This document shows positions 30,427 to 35,971 of a DNA stretch of 64,000 nt, piece by piece (the stretch's first letter is position 1; each line of letters starts with the position of its first letter). The notes under the pieces were generated by a model, which was not told the origin of the DNA, did not search any database, and saw nothing but the letters and a program-made list of their open reading frames with translations. The DNA comes from Blautia faecicola (GTDB lineage: Bacteria > Bacillota > Clostridia > Lachnospirales > Lachnospiraceae). The position numbers and the translations under genes are program-made. The stretch covers positions 2,327,501 through 2,391,500 of the forward strand of contig NZ_SDKC01000001.1 in NCBI RefSeq assembly GCF_004123145.1, read 5' to 3'.

Positions 30427-30464
30427 CTGCCGATAACTGTTTCCCCTGTTATTGGCAGTTTTTT
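30427..30464 (+). terminator. Terminator of tmcAL
   Basis: Stem CTGCCGATAAC (30427-30437) with GTTATTGGCAG (30448-30458), then TTTTTT. It meets the end of the convergent adhesin gene. Confidence 0.9.
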
Positions 30465-32805
30465 ACTGTTTTTTTCCGTTTTTCTCCTCCGATGCTTTCA
30501 GATGATTGACTTCCACATCATCGTGAGAGTACTCATCAAAAAATACCTTCCGGTTCTCAAATATCACACTTCCGTCTTCCAGTGTCAGATCCGCCGTAAT
30601 CTCCGATCGGATTTTCTGAATTCCGTTTACGGTATCCAGCAATGTATTTTTTACGGTCACATTCGGATCTGAGGACGATGCATCCGTCAGAATATACCGT
30701 GCCGTCAACGGAAGTTCTTCCACCTGATACTGTCCTGCCGGAATGCCGTTCACTTCTGCTTTTCCAACCAGATATTCCTGCTCCTTCACGGATTGTTTCG
30801 TAAAATGAATCATACACTGATACCAGCGCTGAATGCCATCCAGATCTTTTCCCGAGATCCGAAAAAAGAAAGTCGGCGTACCGTGATCCCATACCACCTC
30901 GTCTGCCCTGATTTTTTTCCAGATCGTGAACTTCCGCTCCGGATAATTGTATGCTTCCAGCACAAGATCTGTCGTACCTGCTTCTGTTACCGTAATCTCC
31001 TGCTGCCATCTTCCGCTGTAATGCGCCGGTACTTTTGTTTCACGAATCAGAAATTTTCCCTGATTCTTTCCATCTGCCTTCAGCATCTGCACTGTCTCAT
31101 ACTGCCGGCTTTCGCTGTTGAATATCAGTGTCTGCTCCGGGACGGTACTGTATGTCCCGTTTTCCTGTATCCAGGGAAACACCTGAAACTCCGCATCCGG
31201 AAGCACTTCTTTTGTTTTGCCGTCGTATTTCTTTACCGCCACATGCATCCCGGAAGCTGCTTTTTCATCGCAGAAAACCTCCGGCTCCTCGATCCATGGA
31301 GAATAAAATCCATTCTCATTCATTCGTACCTGGCGTCCTCCGTATTTTTGATATTCTTCCTCATCTTTGCTGTTTTTCAGCTGATACTTCGCGCTATAAT
31401 GTTCGGGCGGCTCCTCTTCCCGGATCAGAAACCATCCGTCTTCCGTATCGGTATATGCAATATTTTCCAGCTGATAGCTGCCATCCTGCATATCTTCAAA
31501 TTCTCCGATCTTTTTACTGTACGCATTGTCCTCATATCCCCATAGTGAAAATTTTGCACCTTTCAGACTGCTTCCGTCATTCTGGTCTTTTTTATAAATC
31601 GTCAGATCTGCCGTAACCTGTGGGATATTCAGATTTGCCGTTTGTTCCATCTTGGTGGTTCCACCGGAGCCATCCCAGGTCAGCAGACATACGTCCTGAA
31701 AATTGGATGCAGCCTTGCATCGGTAGATTCCCGCTCCCCAGTACCGGGGAATACTTGCGGTTACCGTGACCGGTATCTTTTTCCCGGTCAGCTGCCAGCG
31801 TTTGTACTGTTTTTCCGGTATACCCACCCGGAAATCACTGTACGTCTCCTTTCCGCTTTTCTCGACATAAGCACCCTGCGGAACCGATATCTCATATCCG
31901 GTCAGCTGTTCCCGGAAATCATATCCGTAATAGCTGGTAAATACACCGTGAAACGTTCCACCGGACAGATAATTTCCATTGAGCAGCTGCCAGCTGTCGC
32001 TGTAACCGGTCAGTGAAAACTTTGCCTGATCCATATTCAGCCAGCCGTCCCCGGTAAATCCTCCGTAATTATTGCTGTTATTTGCCCCGTTTACGATCTT
32101 TTCAATCCTGTCATACGCGAGGTTCTTTTCCGCTGTCGTCGCATTGCTCTGGTTCATTCCGTTTCTTGCCGCTGCAAGGGTATACTCTCCGTTCAGGATA
32201 TGGATTGCCACCTGCGTGATAAAATAATCCATCTGCCAGTCCCCGGTAGAATACGGACCAAACCGACACGGATACCCGTAATAAAGCGCACCGTAGTACA
32301 TCGCATAGGCTATTTTCCGGTTATTCCATCCGATAAATTCCATTCCAAGACCACCGATCGGACAGTCCTTCTTAAACTCCACACAATAGACATAGCGCCA
32401 CTTTCCCCCGCCGTCTACATTTTTATCATCGCCTTCGATGTACTTGATTCCCATTCCCATGTTCGGTGTTGATGTAGTTCCCGATCCTCCGGTTTTTGAC
32501 AAAAACTTGTCATAACGGACATTGGATACAGGAAGTGTCGCACTGTTGTCAAAAGAATAGGTATCTATATCCGAAGATGTCTGTTGTTTCAGATAAAACT
32601 GGATGCCTTCTTCCTCCTGCTGCTCTGCGGCTTCTTCGTTTGTTTCCTTTTCTTCCAGTTCTTCTTCCTGATATACTTCCGCCTGTTCCTGCATCCCGGT
32701 TCCGGCTCCGTAAATTTTCATTCCACCTGCCAGAGCCAGAGCGGACAGAAAGATTCCAAATGCCAGCCCCGAAACCGTATGTTTGCTTTTTATCCACCTT
32801 CTCAA
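30463..32805 (-). CDS. Thioester-domain surface adhesin with Cna-B-like repeats
   Basis: A 780-residue exported protein. Residues 10-35 form a signal peptide, followed by a Glu-rich linker (41-66). A Cys-Gln thioester (TQXA) domain spans about 95-330: Cys141 in YCVEF and Gln198 in ITQVAIHIL are the expected cross-link partners. Such domains bind host amines covalently. Three Cna-B/SpaA-like domains follow at about 398-500, 520-620 and 625-770, each with a Lys pair near the start (IYKKD, AVKKYD, IWKKI) and a Glu-containing motif (REEEPP, RETKVP, EELP) as used for isopeptide bonds. The C-terminus is hydrophilic with no LPXTG motif or membrane anchor, which is unusual. The TTG start overlaps the sipW stop by 4 bases (TTGA). 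It is the last gene of the operon. Confidence 0.88.
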   Translation of the reverse strand: MRRWIKSKHTVSGLAFGIFLSALALAGGMKIYGAGTGMQEQAEVYQEEELEEKETNEEAAEQQEEEGIQFYLKQQTSSDIDTYSFDNSATLPVSNVRYDKFLSKTGGSGTTSTPNMGMGIKYIEGDDKNVDGGGKWRYVYCVEFKKDCPIGGLGMEFIGWNNRKIAYAMYYGALYYGYPCRFGPYSTGDWQMDYFITQVAIHILNGEYTLAAARNGMNQSNATTAEKNLAYDRIEKIVNGANNSNNYGGFTGDGWLNMDQAKFSLTGYSDSWQLLNGNYLSGGTFHGVFTSYYGYDFREQLTGYEISVPQGAYVEKSGKETYSDFRVGIPEKQYKRWQLTGKKIPVTVTASIPRYWGAGIYRCKAASNFQDVCLLTWDGSGGTTKMEQTANLNIPQVTADLTIYKKDQNDGSSLKGAKFSLWGYEDNAYSKKIGEFEDMQDGSYQLENIAYTDTEDGWFLIREEEPPEHYSAKYQLKNSKDEEEYQKYGGRQVRMNENGFYSPWIEEPEVFCDEKAASGMHVAVKKYDGKTKEVLPDAEFQVFPWIQENGTYSTVPEQTLIFNSESRQYETVQMLKADGKNQGKFLIRETKVPAHYSGRWQQEITVTEAGTTDLVLEAYNYPERKFTIWKKIRADEVVWDHGTPTFFFRISGKDLDGIQRWYQCMIHFTKQSVKEQEYLVGKAEVNGIPAGQYQVEELPLTARYILTDASSSDPNVTVKNTLLDTVNGIQKIRSEITADLTLEDGSVIFENRKVFFDEYSHDDVEVNHLKASEEKNGKKQ

Positions 32806-33296
32806 GTGATCTGTCTCCTTTCTTCTCCTGTCGGGTGCACGATCAGCAGTAAAACAGCTGCTGCCACTGCCAGAAACAGAATCTTCTTTTTTTGCAGCCA
32901 GTTCGCCACATACCCCGCATACGGCACATGAAATACCATTTTTCCAAGATACTGCCCGTACGATACGGCTGCGGGATCTTCTGTCTCATTGGCATCTCCC
33001 TGCGTCACCCAGATTTCTTTCTCTGCATCCTTTTTTACCACCCGGTGAAGTACCGCAATCCCGTTTTTCAGTTTATATGCAATGACATCTCCGGTTTCTA
33101 TCTGTTCCGGCGGAATATTCGAGCAGGTATAGGTAATGCTTCCCACCGGAACTGCCGGTTCCATCGATCCACTCACAACAATTCTCGGTGTACAGCCCGC
33201 CACCCGTGGAAAAATAAACAGCAGAACCCCTGCAATTCCTGTCAATGTCAGAAGGATCCGCAGTCCATACTCTGCATATCTGATCATTTTTCTCAT
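32802..33296 (-). CDS. sipW: Signal peptidase I, SipW type
   Basis: A 164-residue membrane peptidase of the ER/archaeal (SipW) kind. Catalytic Ser44 is in VSGSMEP and the second catalytic residue is His84 in VLHRVV, where ordinary bacterial signal peptidases have Lys. An N-terminal helix (about 12-32) and a C-terminal helix (about 138-155) anchor it. SipW enzymes process TasA-type substrates; three such proteins are encoded directly upstream. 7 bases from the previous gene and overlapping the next. Confidence 0.95.
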   Translation of the reverse strand: MRKMIRYAEYGLRILLTLTGIAGVLLFIFPRVAGCTPRIVVSGSMEPAVPVGSITYTCSNIPPEQIETGDVIAYKLKNGIAVLHRVVKKDAEKEIWVTQGDANETEDPAAVSYGQYLGKMVFHVPYAGYVANWLQKKKILFLAVAAAVLLLIVHPTGEERRQIT

Positions 33297-33303
33297 CTGC
33301 TCA

Positions 33304-34449
33304 TCACTTCCTTACCGGCCGCTTTCTGCCAAGCAGCATGAAAAGTAAAACAATTGCCGCACCGACTGCCGTCACCAGATAACCGATCGGTTTCTGCGGG
33401 TCTCCGGTGCTGACTGCAGTTGCTATTTTTCCGGTTTCTTCTTCTCCTGTGGTAAACCAGAACTTTATTTTTCCTTTCTGCAGCGCATAAGTATTATCCG
33501 CGGCCTTCGCAAGGGAAAACGTAAACCGTAACTGTTTTTCCTCCTGTGGTGCAAGTTTTCCCAGGGATTGCAGTTCTTTTGGTGTACATGCTGCCGCACT
33601 TCCCTGATACAGAATCCGGTTTTCTTCTTTTTCAAGCAGTTCCACCTTCAGTTCCATCTTTTCCAGCAATACACTCTGTTCCTGTGTTTCCGCTCTGAAA
33701 AATACTTCCCGTTCTTTTTCGGTCGTATTTTTCAGCCGGATACTTCCCGTCTGGCTTTTTCCCGGAACAAAGGTTTCGAGTGTTTTCATGCATCCTTCTT
33801 GTTCTACCGCAAATCCCTGCACCTGCTCGGCAAGTAACAGTTCCACTTCCTCTGTGTCTGCCGTCTGTTCCTGTATGTCTCCCCCCGGTGCATACTGAAT
33901 CGGAAAGGTGTACACCTTCATCCCCCACGGATCTTCCCCCGTAAAATTCGGTGAAAAATATTCTGCCTGTACTGCCTCTGCACGGACACAGGCCTTCCAC
34001 ACATTATCTTCATCCGGTGTTTTCCATTCCCATGGGATTCGGATTCCCTGAAAGAACTCCACCTTTTCTCCCGGTTTTACCGTATGCTTATAATAGAAGT
34101 AATCACCATCCCGTACCCAGTCACTGCTGATTCCTTCCAGATTTTCCAGTGACAGTGGTTTTTCTGACTCTTTCTGTGAGGAAAAAGACACCGTTGCCCT
34201 CACATAACATTCCGCTCCGTCATTTCGGATTCGTGGAATCTTTGATACAAAACCACCGGGCAGTACATCTTTTCCGTTTTTCCAGGGTACTTCTTTTCCT
34301 TCCTCCAGCATATATTCTTTCAAGCAGATATCCACTTTTCCGGTATTTGCCTGATACAGAACATATACTTTCGGGAGTGCATAGATTCCTGTCAGCCCGA
34401 GAAGCGCAAGCAAACACAAGATACTGCCGATTTTTCCTGTCTTTTTCAT
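33304..34449 (-). CDS. Membrane-anchored TasA/camelysin-like surface protein
   Basis: A 381-residue protein. It has an N-terminal signal segment (about 7-30), a TasA/camelysin-like region ('PGGFVSKIPRIRNDGAECYVR', with 'YVRATVSF' resembling the neighbouring proteins), a Glu-rich linker near 195-210, and a second beta-rich domain (about 225-335). It ends in a membrane helix (about 353-374, YLVTAVGAAIVLLFMLLG) and a basic tail RKRPVRK. 'STGDPQKP' before the helix looks like a worn sortase signal but lacks a proper xPxTG. It could be the base or anchor of a fibre. The ATG overlaps the previous stop by 4 bases. Confidence 0.75.
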   Translation of the reverse strand: MKKTGKIGSILCLLALLGLTGIYALPKVYVLYQANTGKVDICLKEYMLEEGKEVPWKNGKDVLPGGFVSKIPRIRNDGAECYVRATVSFSSQKESEKPLSLENLEGISSDWVRDGDYFYYKHTVKPGEKVEFFQGIRIPWEWKTPDEDNVWKACVRAEAVQAEYFSPNFTGEDPWGMKVYTFPIQYAPGGDIQEQTADTEEVELLLAEQVQGFAVEQEGCMKTLETFVPGKSQTGSIRLKNTTEKEREVFFRAETQEQSVLLEKMELKVELLEKEENRILYQGSAAACTPKELQSLGKLAPQEEKQLRFTFSLAKAADNTYALQKGKIKFWFTTGEEETGKIATAVSTGDPQKPIGYLVTAVGAAIVLLFMLLGRKRPVRK

Positions 34450-34973
34450 TTTTCCTGCCCTTCTTCCCGTTCCATCAGATGTGCAAATGCCTCTCTGCTG
34501 TTTTCATGTCCTGCTGCCTGTACGCTTTCGGTATAGACGGTCAGATCAAAATCCGTGATTTCTTCCTCGCTCTCCCAAGTCAGTCCATACAGAAGCACCT
34601 CTGTACGTTCTTTGGGATTTACGATATCGGTATAATAGTAATACCCGTCTTCTGCAAGTTCCCACCGGCTGCTTCCCATCAGAAGTCTGGCTCCTTCTTC
34701 TGCCTCTTTACTGCTGAACAGACAGCAGGCTCTCACATACATCGGACCCCGTCCGGTATTGGTAAACGTCACTTCTTTTTTGATCTTTTCCCCCGGTTTC
34801 AGTTCCGGATCCGGAAATTCCTCTTCTATCTCCACTTCATTCATACCGACAGAAAGCGTATTATCCTGCCGGCTCTGGTCGGTAAACCAGCCGTATATGG
34901 TTCGTCCACCGACCAGCAGCATCATCATCAGCAGCGCAGACAGGAGTCCTGTAACAGTCATGACTCTTTTCAT
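34446..34973 (-). CDS. TasA/camelysin-like exported protein
   Basis: A 175-residue protein with a signal peptide (about 5-23) followed by GWFTDQ and 'NTLSVGMNEVEIEEEF', a close variant of the SipW-type cleavage region. Then comes a compact beta domain: 'LKPGEKIKKEVTFTNTG', 'YVRACCLF' and 'YYYYTDIVNPKE'. It is shorter than Bacillus TasA and resembles TapA/camelysin members. It lies 18 bases after the gene at 34992-35687 and overlaps the next by 4. Confidence 0.85.
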   Translation of the reverse strand: MKRVMTVTGLLSALLMMMLLVGGRTIYGWFTDQSRQDNTLSVGMNEVEIEEEFPDPELKPGEKIKKEVTFTNTGRGPMYVRACCLFSSKEAEEGARLLMGSSRWELAEDGYYYYTDIVNPKERTEVLLYGLTWESEEEITDFDLTVYTESVQAAGHENSREAFAHLMEREEGQEK

Positions 34974-34991
34974 TCCTCCCGTTCCTTTCTA

Positions 34992-35687
34992 TCATGAAAA
35001 ACTTTCTGCCAGTTCTCTCTGATTGGAAATGATCTTCCAGATTTCTACCGCATTATTGGTTCCTCCGTTCAGATCTGTTGTCTGGATACCAAATGCTTTG
35101 ATTCCGATCTTATACATGCCGTTTTCGAGTCCCTGACCTTCCATTGCATTGACAAACGTAACTTCGCGGAACAGATTTTTTGTGGTTTCCTGTGGTTTTA
35201 CCACGGTACAGGTTCCCTGTGCTCCGGCATAGGCATACAGATGTTTGACTGCTGTTTTTTCTCCTGTCTCATCTGTGACATCCACAGATCCCAGTAATTT
35301 CCAGGAGCTGTCTGTCTGATAGGTATACAGTTCTCTCACTACTTCCGGATTTCTTGTGCCGTCATTGTTTACCGTAACGATCTTTTTGCACGGAACTTCC
35401 ACGGTCATATAAACAAACGCATCGTTCGTTCCGGTATTTTTTACCTGCGGATCTTTCTCGATGGTCTGATTCGGTGTCATGTTTTCCGCTTCGTCCGGGA
35501 TGTCGTTCCCGTTTTCATCCGGTTTTTTGTCCCACTCCGGCTCTTCCAAATCAATCGTGACTTTTCCAACCGTAAAGGTATTGGTTTTTTCGTCCTGATC
35601 GGTAAAGTACGCAGATACGGAGCCTACCAGAAGGACAGCTGTGATTGCAGTGATACCCATATATTTTTTCCATGTGTTGTTTTTCAT
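34992..35687 (-). CDS. SipW-dependent TasA-like fibre protein
   Basis: A 231-residue exported protein and the first gene of the operon. The signal peptide (about 8-26) ends in SAYFTDQDEKTNTFTVGKV, the textbook SipW-type signal. The mature part is acidic and beta-rich, with 'KNTGTNDAFVYMTVEVP' and 'NLFREVTFVNAMEG', matching the TasA/camelysin fold, and could be the main fibre subunit. Its ribosome site GGAGATC is formed by the end of the fourth 12-bp repeat in the leader. Promoter candidate at 35943-35971. Confidence 0.88.
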   Translation of the reverse strand: MKNNTWKKYMGITAITAVLLVGSVSAYFTDQDEKTNTFTVGKVTIDLEEPEWDKKPDENGNDIPDEAENMTPNQTIEKDPQVKNTGTNDAFVYMTVEVPCKKIVTVNNDGTRNPEVVRELYTYQTDSSWKLLGSVDVTDETGEKTAVKHLYAYAGAQGTCTVVKPQETTKNLFREVTFVNAMEGQGLENGMYKIGIKAFGIQTTDLNGGTNNAVEIWKIISNQRELAESFS

Positions 35688-35746: not shown

Positions 35747-35901
35747 TTCATTGAAATGGAAATGTTGAAAATGTTGTTTATCTTGTTCTTATCTCGATCA
35801 CCCCTCTTTTCCTGTGTTGAGGCGCAAAAATACTCTGCTCCTGACCTTCTTGTTTCGTTTTTCATAAAATGGAATGGATGGCAGAACTGCCGGAATGAAC
35901 C

Positions 35902-35942
35902 AAAAAAGGTTCTGTCAGATAAAGAACTATCTGACAGAACCC
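35902..35942 (-). terminator. Terminator after the UPF0210 gene
   Basis: Perfect 14-bp stem GGTTCTGTCAGATA (35908-35921) with TATCTGACAGAACC (35929-35942); TTTTTT follows on the minus strand. Confidence 0.88.
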
Positions 35943-35971
35943 AGTATAACAGTCCTGCACCCAATGTGCAA
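35943..35971 (-). promoter_or_regulatory. Promoter candidate of the SipW/TasA-like operon
   Basis: Reading leftward: -35 TTGCAC (35966-35971), 17-base spacer, -10 TATACT (35943-35948). The expected start (near 35936) lies within the 5' arm of the terminator hairpin at 35902-35942. Confidence 0.55.

Follow-up and report, generated by a model that had tools for sequence, protein, structure and literature searches.

In TasA fibres, the N-terminal strand of each subunit occupies the groove of the next subunit, and the N-terminus of the accessory protein TapA mimics this donor strand and nucleates the fibres (PMC9674648, PMC10151520). Such fibres are donor-strand fibres and not cross-beta amyloid (PMC9674648), which corrects the amyloid-like nature ascribed to SipW/TasA fibres in the original prediction for the locus described here. 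In C. perfringens, the sipW-bsaABCRSD operon encodes SipW, BsaA and other secreted proteins, and polymers are formed independently of sortase (PMC7395162). Here, a related operon is analysed in a window of 64,000 nucleotides of Blautia faecicola (NZ_SDKC01000001.1, positions 2,327,501 to 2,391,500), to which all coordinates refer. Its five proteins are named P1 to P5 in gene order and comprise the TasA-like subunits P1 and P2, the TasA-like protein P3 with a sortase-type C-terminus, the SipW-type signal peptidase P4 and the large thioester adhesin P5; loci compared across genomes carry individual L-numbers. The operon probably encodes a donor-strand fibre with a sortase-anchored base and a plug-in adhesin, presumably at the tip.

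The C-terminal tail of the adhesin

At its C-terminus, P5 has no LPXTG motif, transmembrane segment, hydrophobic stretch or basic end; the lack of an LPXTG and a membrane anchor had been recognized before. Its relatives in SipW/TasA operons all lack an LPXTG-type anchor, too. Loss of this motif by a sequencing error or frameshift, the refuting case that had been named for the locus, was rejected because every relative in such operons is also devoid of an anchor. The last ~20 residues of P5, EYSHDDVEVNHLKAS, in the following called the tail, match the mature N-terminus of P1, AYFTDQDEKTNTFTVG, without gaps. Mature N-termini of TasA-like subunits (donors) follow the consensus A-[YF]-[FL]-[TS]-D-x5-N-x-[FLIV]-x-[V]-G after signal-peptide removal, and the tails of P5 relatives, which directly adjoin FENRK, the last strand of the final CnaB-like domain, follow the pattern W/Y-x-x-[YFL]-[ST]-[DH]-x5-N-x-[FIL]. 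The donor strand of TasA comprises residues 28-38 in the fibre, where F29, I32 and F39 touch the next subunits (PMC9674648). Judged by its sequence, the P1 motif appears to correspond to this strand together with F39. Placed on the TasA sequence, the match between tail and donor falls at F29, D31 and F39, with F29 and F39 on the hydrophobic tail positions 2 and 12.

The similarity was assessed with profiles in both directions. A profile of 12 columns, built only from the tails of 26 operons, was run against 603 proteins and the non-tail proteins were ranked; subunit N-termini took all of the first 10 and 24 of the first 30 places. Permutation of the columns (500 permutations) gave an average of 1.6 of 30 with a maximum of 19, and the reversed profile gave 0. 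The register of this profile was chosen with the motif known; a hidden Markov model (HMM) of the aligned last 34 residues was built donor-blind, and its hits 1-4 were subunit N-termini as well, each with an E-value of 0.03-0.8. Conversely, a donor profile from 44 subunit N-termini was scored over every sequence window of each protein. It ranked the tail first among 476-1538 windows in 14 of the 26 adhesins (547-1609 amino acids), and the median rank fraction of the C-terminus was 0.0019 in the adhesins versus 0.017 in 159 other proteins, only 2.5% of which reached a fraction of 0.002 with their C-terminus.

It is very improbable that the tail has nothing to do with the donor strand and is another C-terminal feature, such as the last CnaB-like strand or a sorting signal, whose likeness to the donor arose by chance or convergence. 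Such an origin would be compatible with the shortness of the motif and with its position behind a final domain which is homologous in most of the set, but a profile of the stretch just upstream of the tail found 3 of 30 subunit matches compared to 24 for the tail itself. Furthermore, the tail (residues 692-714 of the P5 model) is predicted to be disordered outside the last domain, it bears no hydrophobic/basic sorting signal, and the similarity recurs at loci that were found prospectively.

Linkage to SipW/TasA loci and the proposed fibre

For the prospective search, the final domain without the tail served as a profile against 200 genomes of the family, and eight new loci were retrieved. A SipW-type peptidase and TasA-like subunits are encoded at each of the eight, together with a large protein that carries the tail (for example AFTDTDLCVNHFGT, KLTDTDVVKNSLVI and NFSHADVMENSFTV); in five of them, the donor profile gave the tail rank 1 among about 1300-1500 windows. 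Almost every complete SipW/TasA locus that was examined has a tailed protein, and L119 and L120 are truncated by the ends of their contigs. Among thioester adhesins from elsewhere, the C-terminus is of the sortase type or hydrophobic/basic in all nine complete ones (L053, L055, L057-L063); L056 is cut off. The conserved docking end is combined with varied heads, namely TED (L106, 45.6 bits, above the cut-off), VWA (L116) and, as weak matches, PA14 (L117) and AgI/II C2 (L109). In a genome of another family, large proteins end in or contain FKWLDGTAIMPNRFSIKT and WIDGNTRCRNIFNST.

These observations suggest the following assembly. P4 would trim the TasA-like subunits and thereby expose N-termini of the type A-[YF]-F-T-D-x5-N-x-F-x-V-G, and each exposed strand would complete the next subunit's beta-sandwich in the manner of TasA, which is proposed from family membership and the motif. 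P1 would form the shaft with P2 as a minor subunit, and P3 would be the base, presumably joined to peptidoglycan by a sortase that recognizes its TGD signal. P5 would be secreted free, and its C-terminal copy of the strand would enter an unfilled groove, most simply that of the first P1. The thioester head would thus be presented at one end of the fibre, with P3 fixing the opposite end to the wall, and Cys141-Gln198 could bond covalently to amines on the surface of host or neighbouring cells. P5 is probably mounted on the fibre by such a plug because it has no wall anchor and its tail copies the inter-subunit strand, and this C-terminal copy supports the earlier proposal of an adhesin retained by the fibre or by the anchored protein of 381 residues. 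Both the donor segment of P1 (mature residues 1-15, block means 34 and 52) and the tail of P5 are unstructured in the monomer models, in agreement with the proposed plugging.

The docking partner may be a different one. The tail could dock straight into wall-anchored P3, and the adhesin would then be a short surface protein beside the fibre and not a fibre-end adhesin. P3-type partners may suit the tail because the tail profile finds a P3 N-terminus (L107) as its best non-tail match, and P3 itself has a TasA-like domain. However, two mobile-element-like two-gene modules (L024, L025), situated by integrase-type genes, encode only P1 and a tailed thioester adhesin, without SipW, P2 or P3, though a chromosomal P3 exists in those genomes. 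Docking into P3 is considered unlikely. Even less probable is a role of the adhesin as a nucleator in the manner of TapA, with the tail mainly acting as a chaperone-like first donor strand and adhesion being secondary. The N-terminal strand of TapA does nucleate TasA (PMC9674648, PMC10151520), and the adhesin gene shares its operon with SipW and the subunits; yet proteins of 550-1600 amino acids with heads of the pilus-adhesin type (TED, VWA) exceed the needs of a nucleator, and nucleation overlaps with the plug-in model rather than excluding it.

Several observations weigh against a fibre with a plugged adhesin. Single matches of the tail HMM are weak (E 0.03-5) and the motif is short. In most tails, the first aromatic residue of the subunit motif is missing and so is its glycine, and the tails use H and D equally often. 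In L024, L025, L106, L108 and L158, windows other than the tail score higher with the donor profile, and P3 proteins of related operons also have donor-like N-termini. The tails share ancestry, because the preceding final domain is homologous in most of the set, and their loci are therefore not independent events. L114 is a SipW locus without a tailed protein. Finally, the TasA fibre structure 8AUR is found only at rank 10 in comparisons with the P1 model (E 0.013, probability 0.84), amid cohesins and other beta-sandwiches.

Beyond this operon, there is a somewhat better than even chance that donor-strand pili of this kind are widespread and undescribed in Bacillota, built from a TasA-like shaft and a TasA-like base anchored by sortase, with interchangeable end adhesins (TED, VWA and others) attached via a C-terminal donor-strand mimic, as a Gram-positive functional counterpart of chaperone-usher pili.

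The operon and its proteins

The five open reading frames, all on the minus strand, were found between positions 30463 and 35687, packed as tightly and in the order that the original prediction had given, P1-P2-P3-P4-P5, with intergenic gaps of 18, -4, 7 and -4 nucleotides (Table 1). The same housekeeping genes flank the operon in all five species of the genus whose genomes were examined, and it is a genuine operon and no annotation accident.

Table 1. Features of the operon and its leader in the 64,000-nucleotide window
Feature	Position	Strand	Basis
P1, camelysin/TasA-family fibre subunit (probable shaft), 231 aa	34992..35687	-	PF12389, TIGR04088
P1 mature N-terminus AYFTDQDEKTNTFTVG, putative donor-strand motif	35565..35612	-	A, Y, T, D, N, F, G invariant in 12 homologues
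P2, TasA-like minor subunit with SipW-type signal peptide, 175 aa	34446..34973	-	TIGR04090, PF12389, alignment of 10
P3, TasA-like N-terminal domain, second domain and sortase-type C-terminus, 381 aa (probable wall-anchored base)	33304..34449	-	hhalign, 11 homologues
TGD codons (residues 348-350) of P3 sorting signal	33400..33408	-	invariant in 11 homologues
P4, SipW-type (ER-type) signal peptidase, 164 aa, Ser44/His84	32802..33296	-	TIGR02228
P5, adhesin without wall or membrane anchor, 780 aa, TTG start	30463..32805	-	three SpaA domains; orthologues
Thioester-domain head of P5 (probable)	31624..32574	-	Pfam TED matches in homologues; fold match 6FWV
Cys141 codon of P5	32383-32385	-	invariant
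Gln198 codon of P5	32212-32214	-	invariant
Final CnaB-like domain of P5	30535..31044	-	kept before tail in adhesins with differing heads
P5 C-terminal tail EYSHDDVEVNHLKASEEKNGKKQ, putative donor-strand mimic	30466..30534	-	profile comparisons with subunit N-termini
Dyad CGGCAGTTCTGCC in operon leader	35880..35892	-	sole copy in 3.74-Mb genome
Strong 16-bp hairpin with U-tract	35907..35942	-	directly downstream of promoter-like TATACT

Families were assigned by curated cut-offs (Pfam gathering, NCBIfam TIGR/NF). Both subunits belong to PF12389 (Peptidase_M73/camelysin; P1 27.0 and P2 28.4 bits, cut-off 22.5). P1 carries a SipW-type signal peptide (TIGR04088, 33.6 bits, cut-off 19), and P2 is a member of the BsaA family (TIGR04090, 64.4 bits, cut-off 60), in which P1 remains below the cut-off with 34.3 bits. 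The labels TasA-like and camelysin-like, which had been given to these proteins beforehand, thus hold at the level of family membership, and the structure comparison described above lends weak support to a TasA fold of P1. Its AlphaFold model is a beta-sandwich with a predicted local distance difference test (pLDDT) score of 84, and a sequence-profile search of solved structures yielded no TasA relatives at E < 0.01. P4 is assigned to TIGR02228 (87.1 bits, cut-off 51.85) and has the Ser44 and His84 dyad, as expected for the SipW-type peptidase it had been taken for. With 72.2 bits it stays below the cut-off of 190 for the Bacillus SipW equivalog NF046067, and by these family models it is a relative of Bacillus SipW and not the Bacillus equivalog.

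P3 matches no family, and its N-terminal domain is related to P1 over the full length (hhalign probability 92.9, E 3.8e-7). The C-terminus of all 11 homologues has the same arrangement, with an invariant TGD before a hydrophobic stretch and K/R residues as the basic end, and six sortases are encoded in the genome. P3 had been described as a membrane-anchored relative of 381 residues. It is indeed an anchored TasA relative, but its C-terminal sequence suggests that it is probably anchored to the wall by a sortase rather than simply to the membrane; because of these sortase-substrate features it is better read as a wall-anchored base.

P5 carries three SpaA (CnaB-type) domains, and its orthologues in four species of the genus share 52-67% identity. 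Both Cys141 and Gln198 are retained without exception in 8 relatives and 12 thioester-domain homologues. In the predicted structure (mean pLDDT 80), the best fold match is the TIE protein 6FWV of B. anthracis (E 8e-24); the structural alignment, which takes several domains together, covers 490 residues (Z 11.5, root-mean-square deviation 11.6), and that with the E. faecium thioester domain 6FWY covers 226 residues (Z 11.0, deviation 8.3). P5 itself falls below the Pfam cut-offs for TED (PF08341, 20.5/22) and TED_2 (PF20610, 18.0/27), and each of these families matches 9 of 12 P5 relatives at E-values up to 0.1. A sequence-profile search of solved structures gave no thioester-domain relatives at E < 0.01. 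The head is probably TED-like with a thioester warhead, and conserved residues and model suggest that Cys141 and Gln198 may form the bond; the residues and the three Cna-B-like domains that the original prediction had pointed out are present. For the final domain, NCBIfam and Pfam offer no fitting model apart from weak or borderline matches to SpaA/DUF7601. A GG.xIYG likeness to P2 raised the possibility of a SipW-type signal peptide on P5; it was dropped, as ordinary signal peptides are found in the relatives L020 and L021.

A profile of the thioester domain found matches in 16 of 397 genomes of the family, that of P3 in 17 of 392 genomes of the order and that of the final domain in 14 of 200 genomes of the family. 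Oliverpabstia intestinalis, Blautia parvula and Candidatus Pullilachnospira species are among the named carriers. The P1 profile, run against 398 genomes of the phylum, matched its own genome and one distant genome only. No match was obtained with the thioester domain in plasmid and phage records, nor with the whole adhesin in a first scan of genome contigs.

Three further loci were noticed in the same genome. L023 (contig C2, 16000-35900) is a second complete set with SipW, P1, P3 with VKTGD, a tailed thioester adhesin of 1124 amino acids and a P2-like protein, located on a separate contig of 129.5 kb that is possibly an extrachromosomal element. L026 (C1, 2897000-2914000) is a third SipW locus, in which TasA-like proteins occur together with two class C-like sortases, an SPKTGD-anchored protein and a 334-residue protein with GSGIVNHFENKDG near its end; the locus represents a hybrid of a sortase pilus and TasA-type genes. 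L027 (C1, 1058000-1077000) encodes several proteins of 277-329 amino acids with N-termini of the TYAWY/TYAWF type and two SipW-like signal peptidases.

The operon leader contains the dyad CGGCAGTTCTGCC, a candidate operator or leader element, whose core GGCAGTTCTGCC is conserved 5' of P1 in all five members of the genus. A promoter-like TTGCAC-17-TATACT lies directly 5' of the hairpin (region 35907-35970, minus strand). The hairpin may either terminate the upstream gene or serve as an attenuator; in O. intestinalis (L019), its stem is preserved with a paired change from G-C to A-T. Imperfect direct repeats of 12 nucleotides (ACATATCAAAAA-like) are found just 5' of the ribosome site of P1 (35690-35745, minus strand) and also in L019.

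Comparison with known systems

In the literature searched, which covered little subscription literature, neither a combination of SipW/TasA with a thioester adhesin nor a C-terminal donor-strand mimic was found, and a plug-in adhesin design on TasA-type donor-strand fibres, apparently common to many relatives, was not found described. If the proposed fibre exists, it would explain how many gut Lachnospiraceae display large anchorless adhesins, and TasA-type fibres would gain an adhesive function beyond their matrix role. The tail would provide a short sequence rule for the recognition of such adhesins, with a partner that is testable with a peptide, and what occupies the ends of TasA-like fibres would become directly testable.

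The TasA-TapA-SipW fibre of B. subtilis shares with this operon the SipW-type peptidase, subunits of the camelysin family and the donor-strand motif at the mature N-terminus, and TapA is likewise an accessory protein that imitates the donor strand. In TapA, however, the mimic is located at the N-terminus of a small protein, whereas it is found here at the C-terminus of an adhesin of 780 amino acids, and the operon additionally encodes a TasA-like base with a sortase-type anchor. The C. perfringens sipW-bsaABCRSD operon has SipW and subunits of the BsaA family, as P2 is by TIGR04090, but a thioester-headed or tailed adhesin is not described in the accessible part of the source (PMC7395162), and no linked two-component system was seen at the locus studied here. 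TIE adhesins such as 6FWV of B. anthracis and Cpa of S. pyogenes resemble P5 in the TED-like fold, the conserved Cys and Gln and the CnaB-type repeats; typical members are attached by sortase, whereas P5 is anchorless and ends in a donor-strand-like tail. By analogy, chaperone-usher pili with FimH-type tip adhesins also combine strand complementation with a dedicated adhesin. In contrast to these pili, the system described here is Gram-positive and has no usher or outer membrane, and P5 would be the donor of a strand, whereas FimH is an acceptor.

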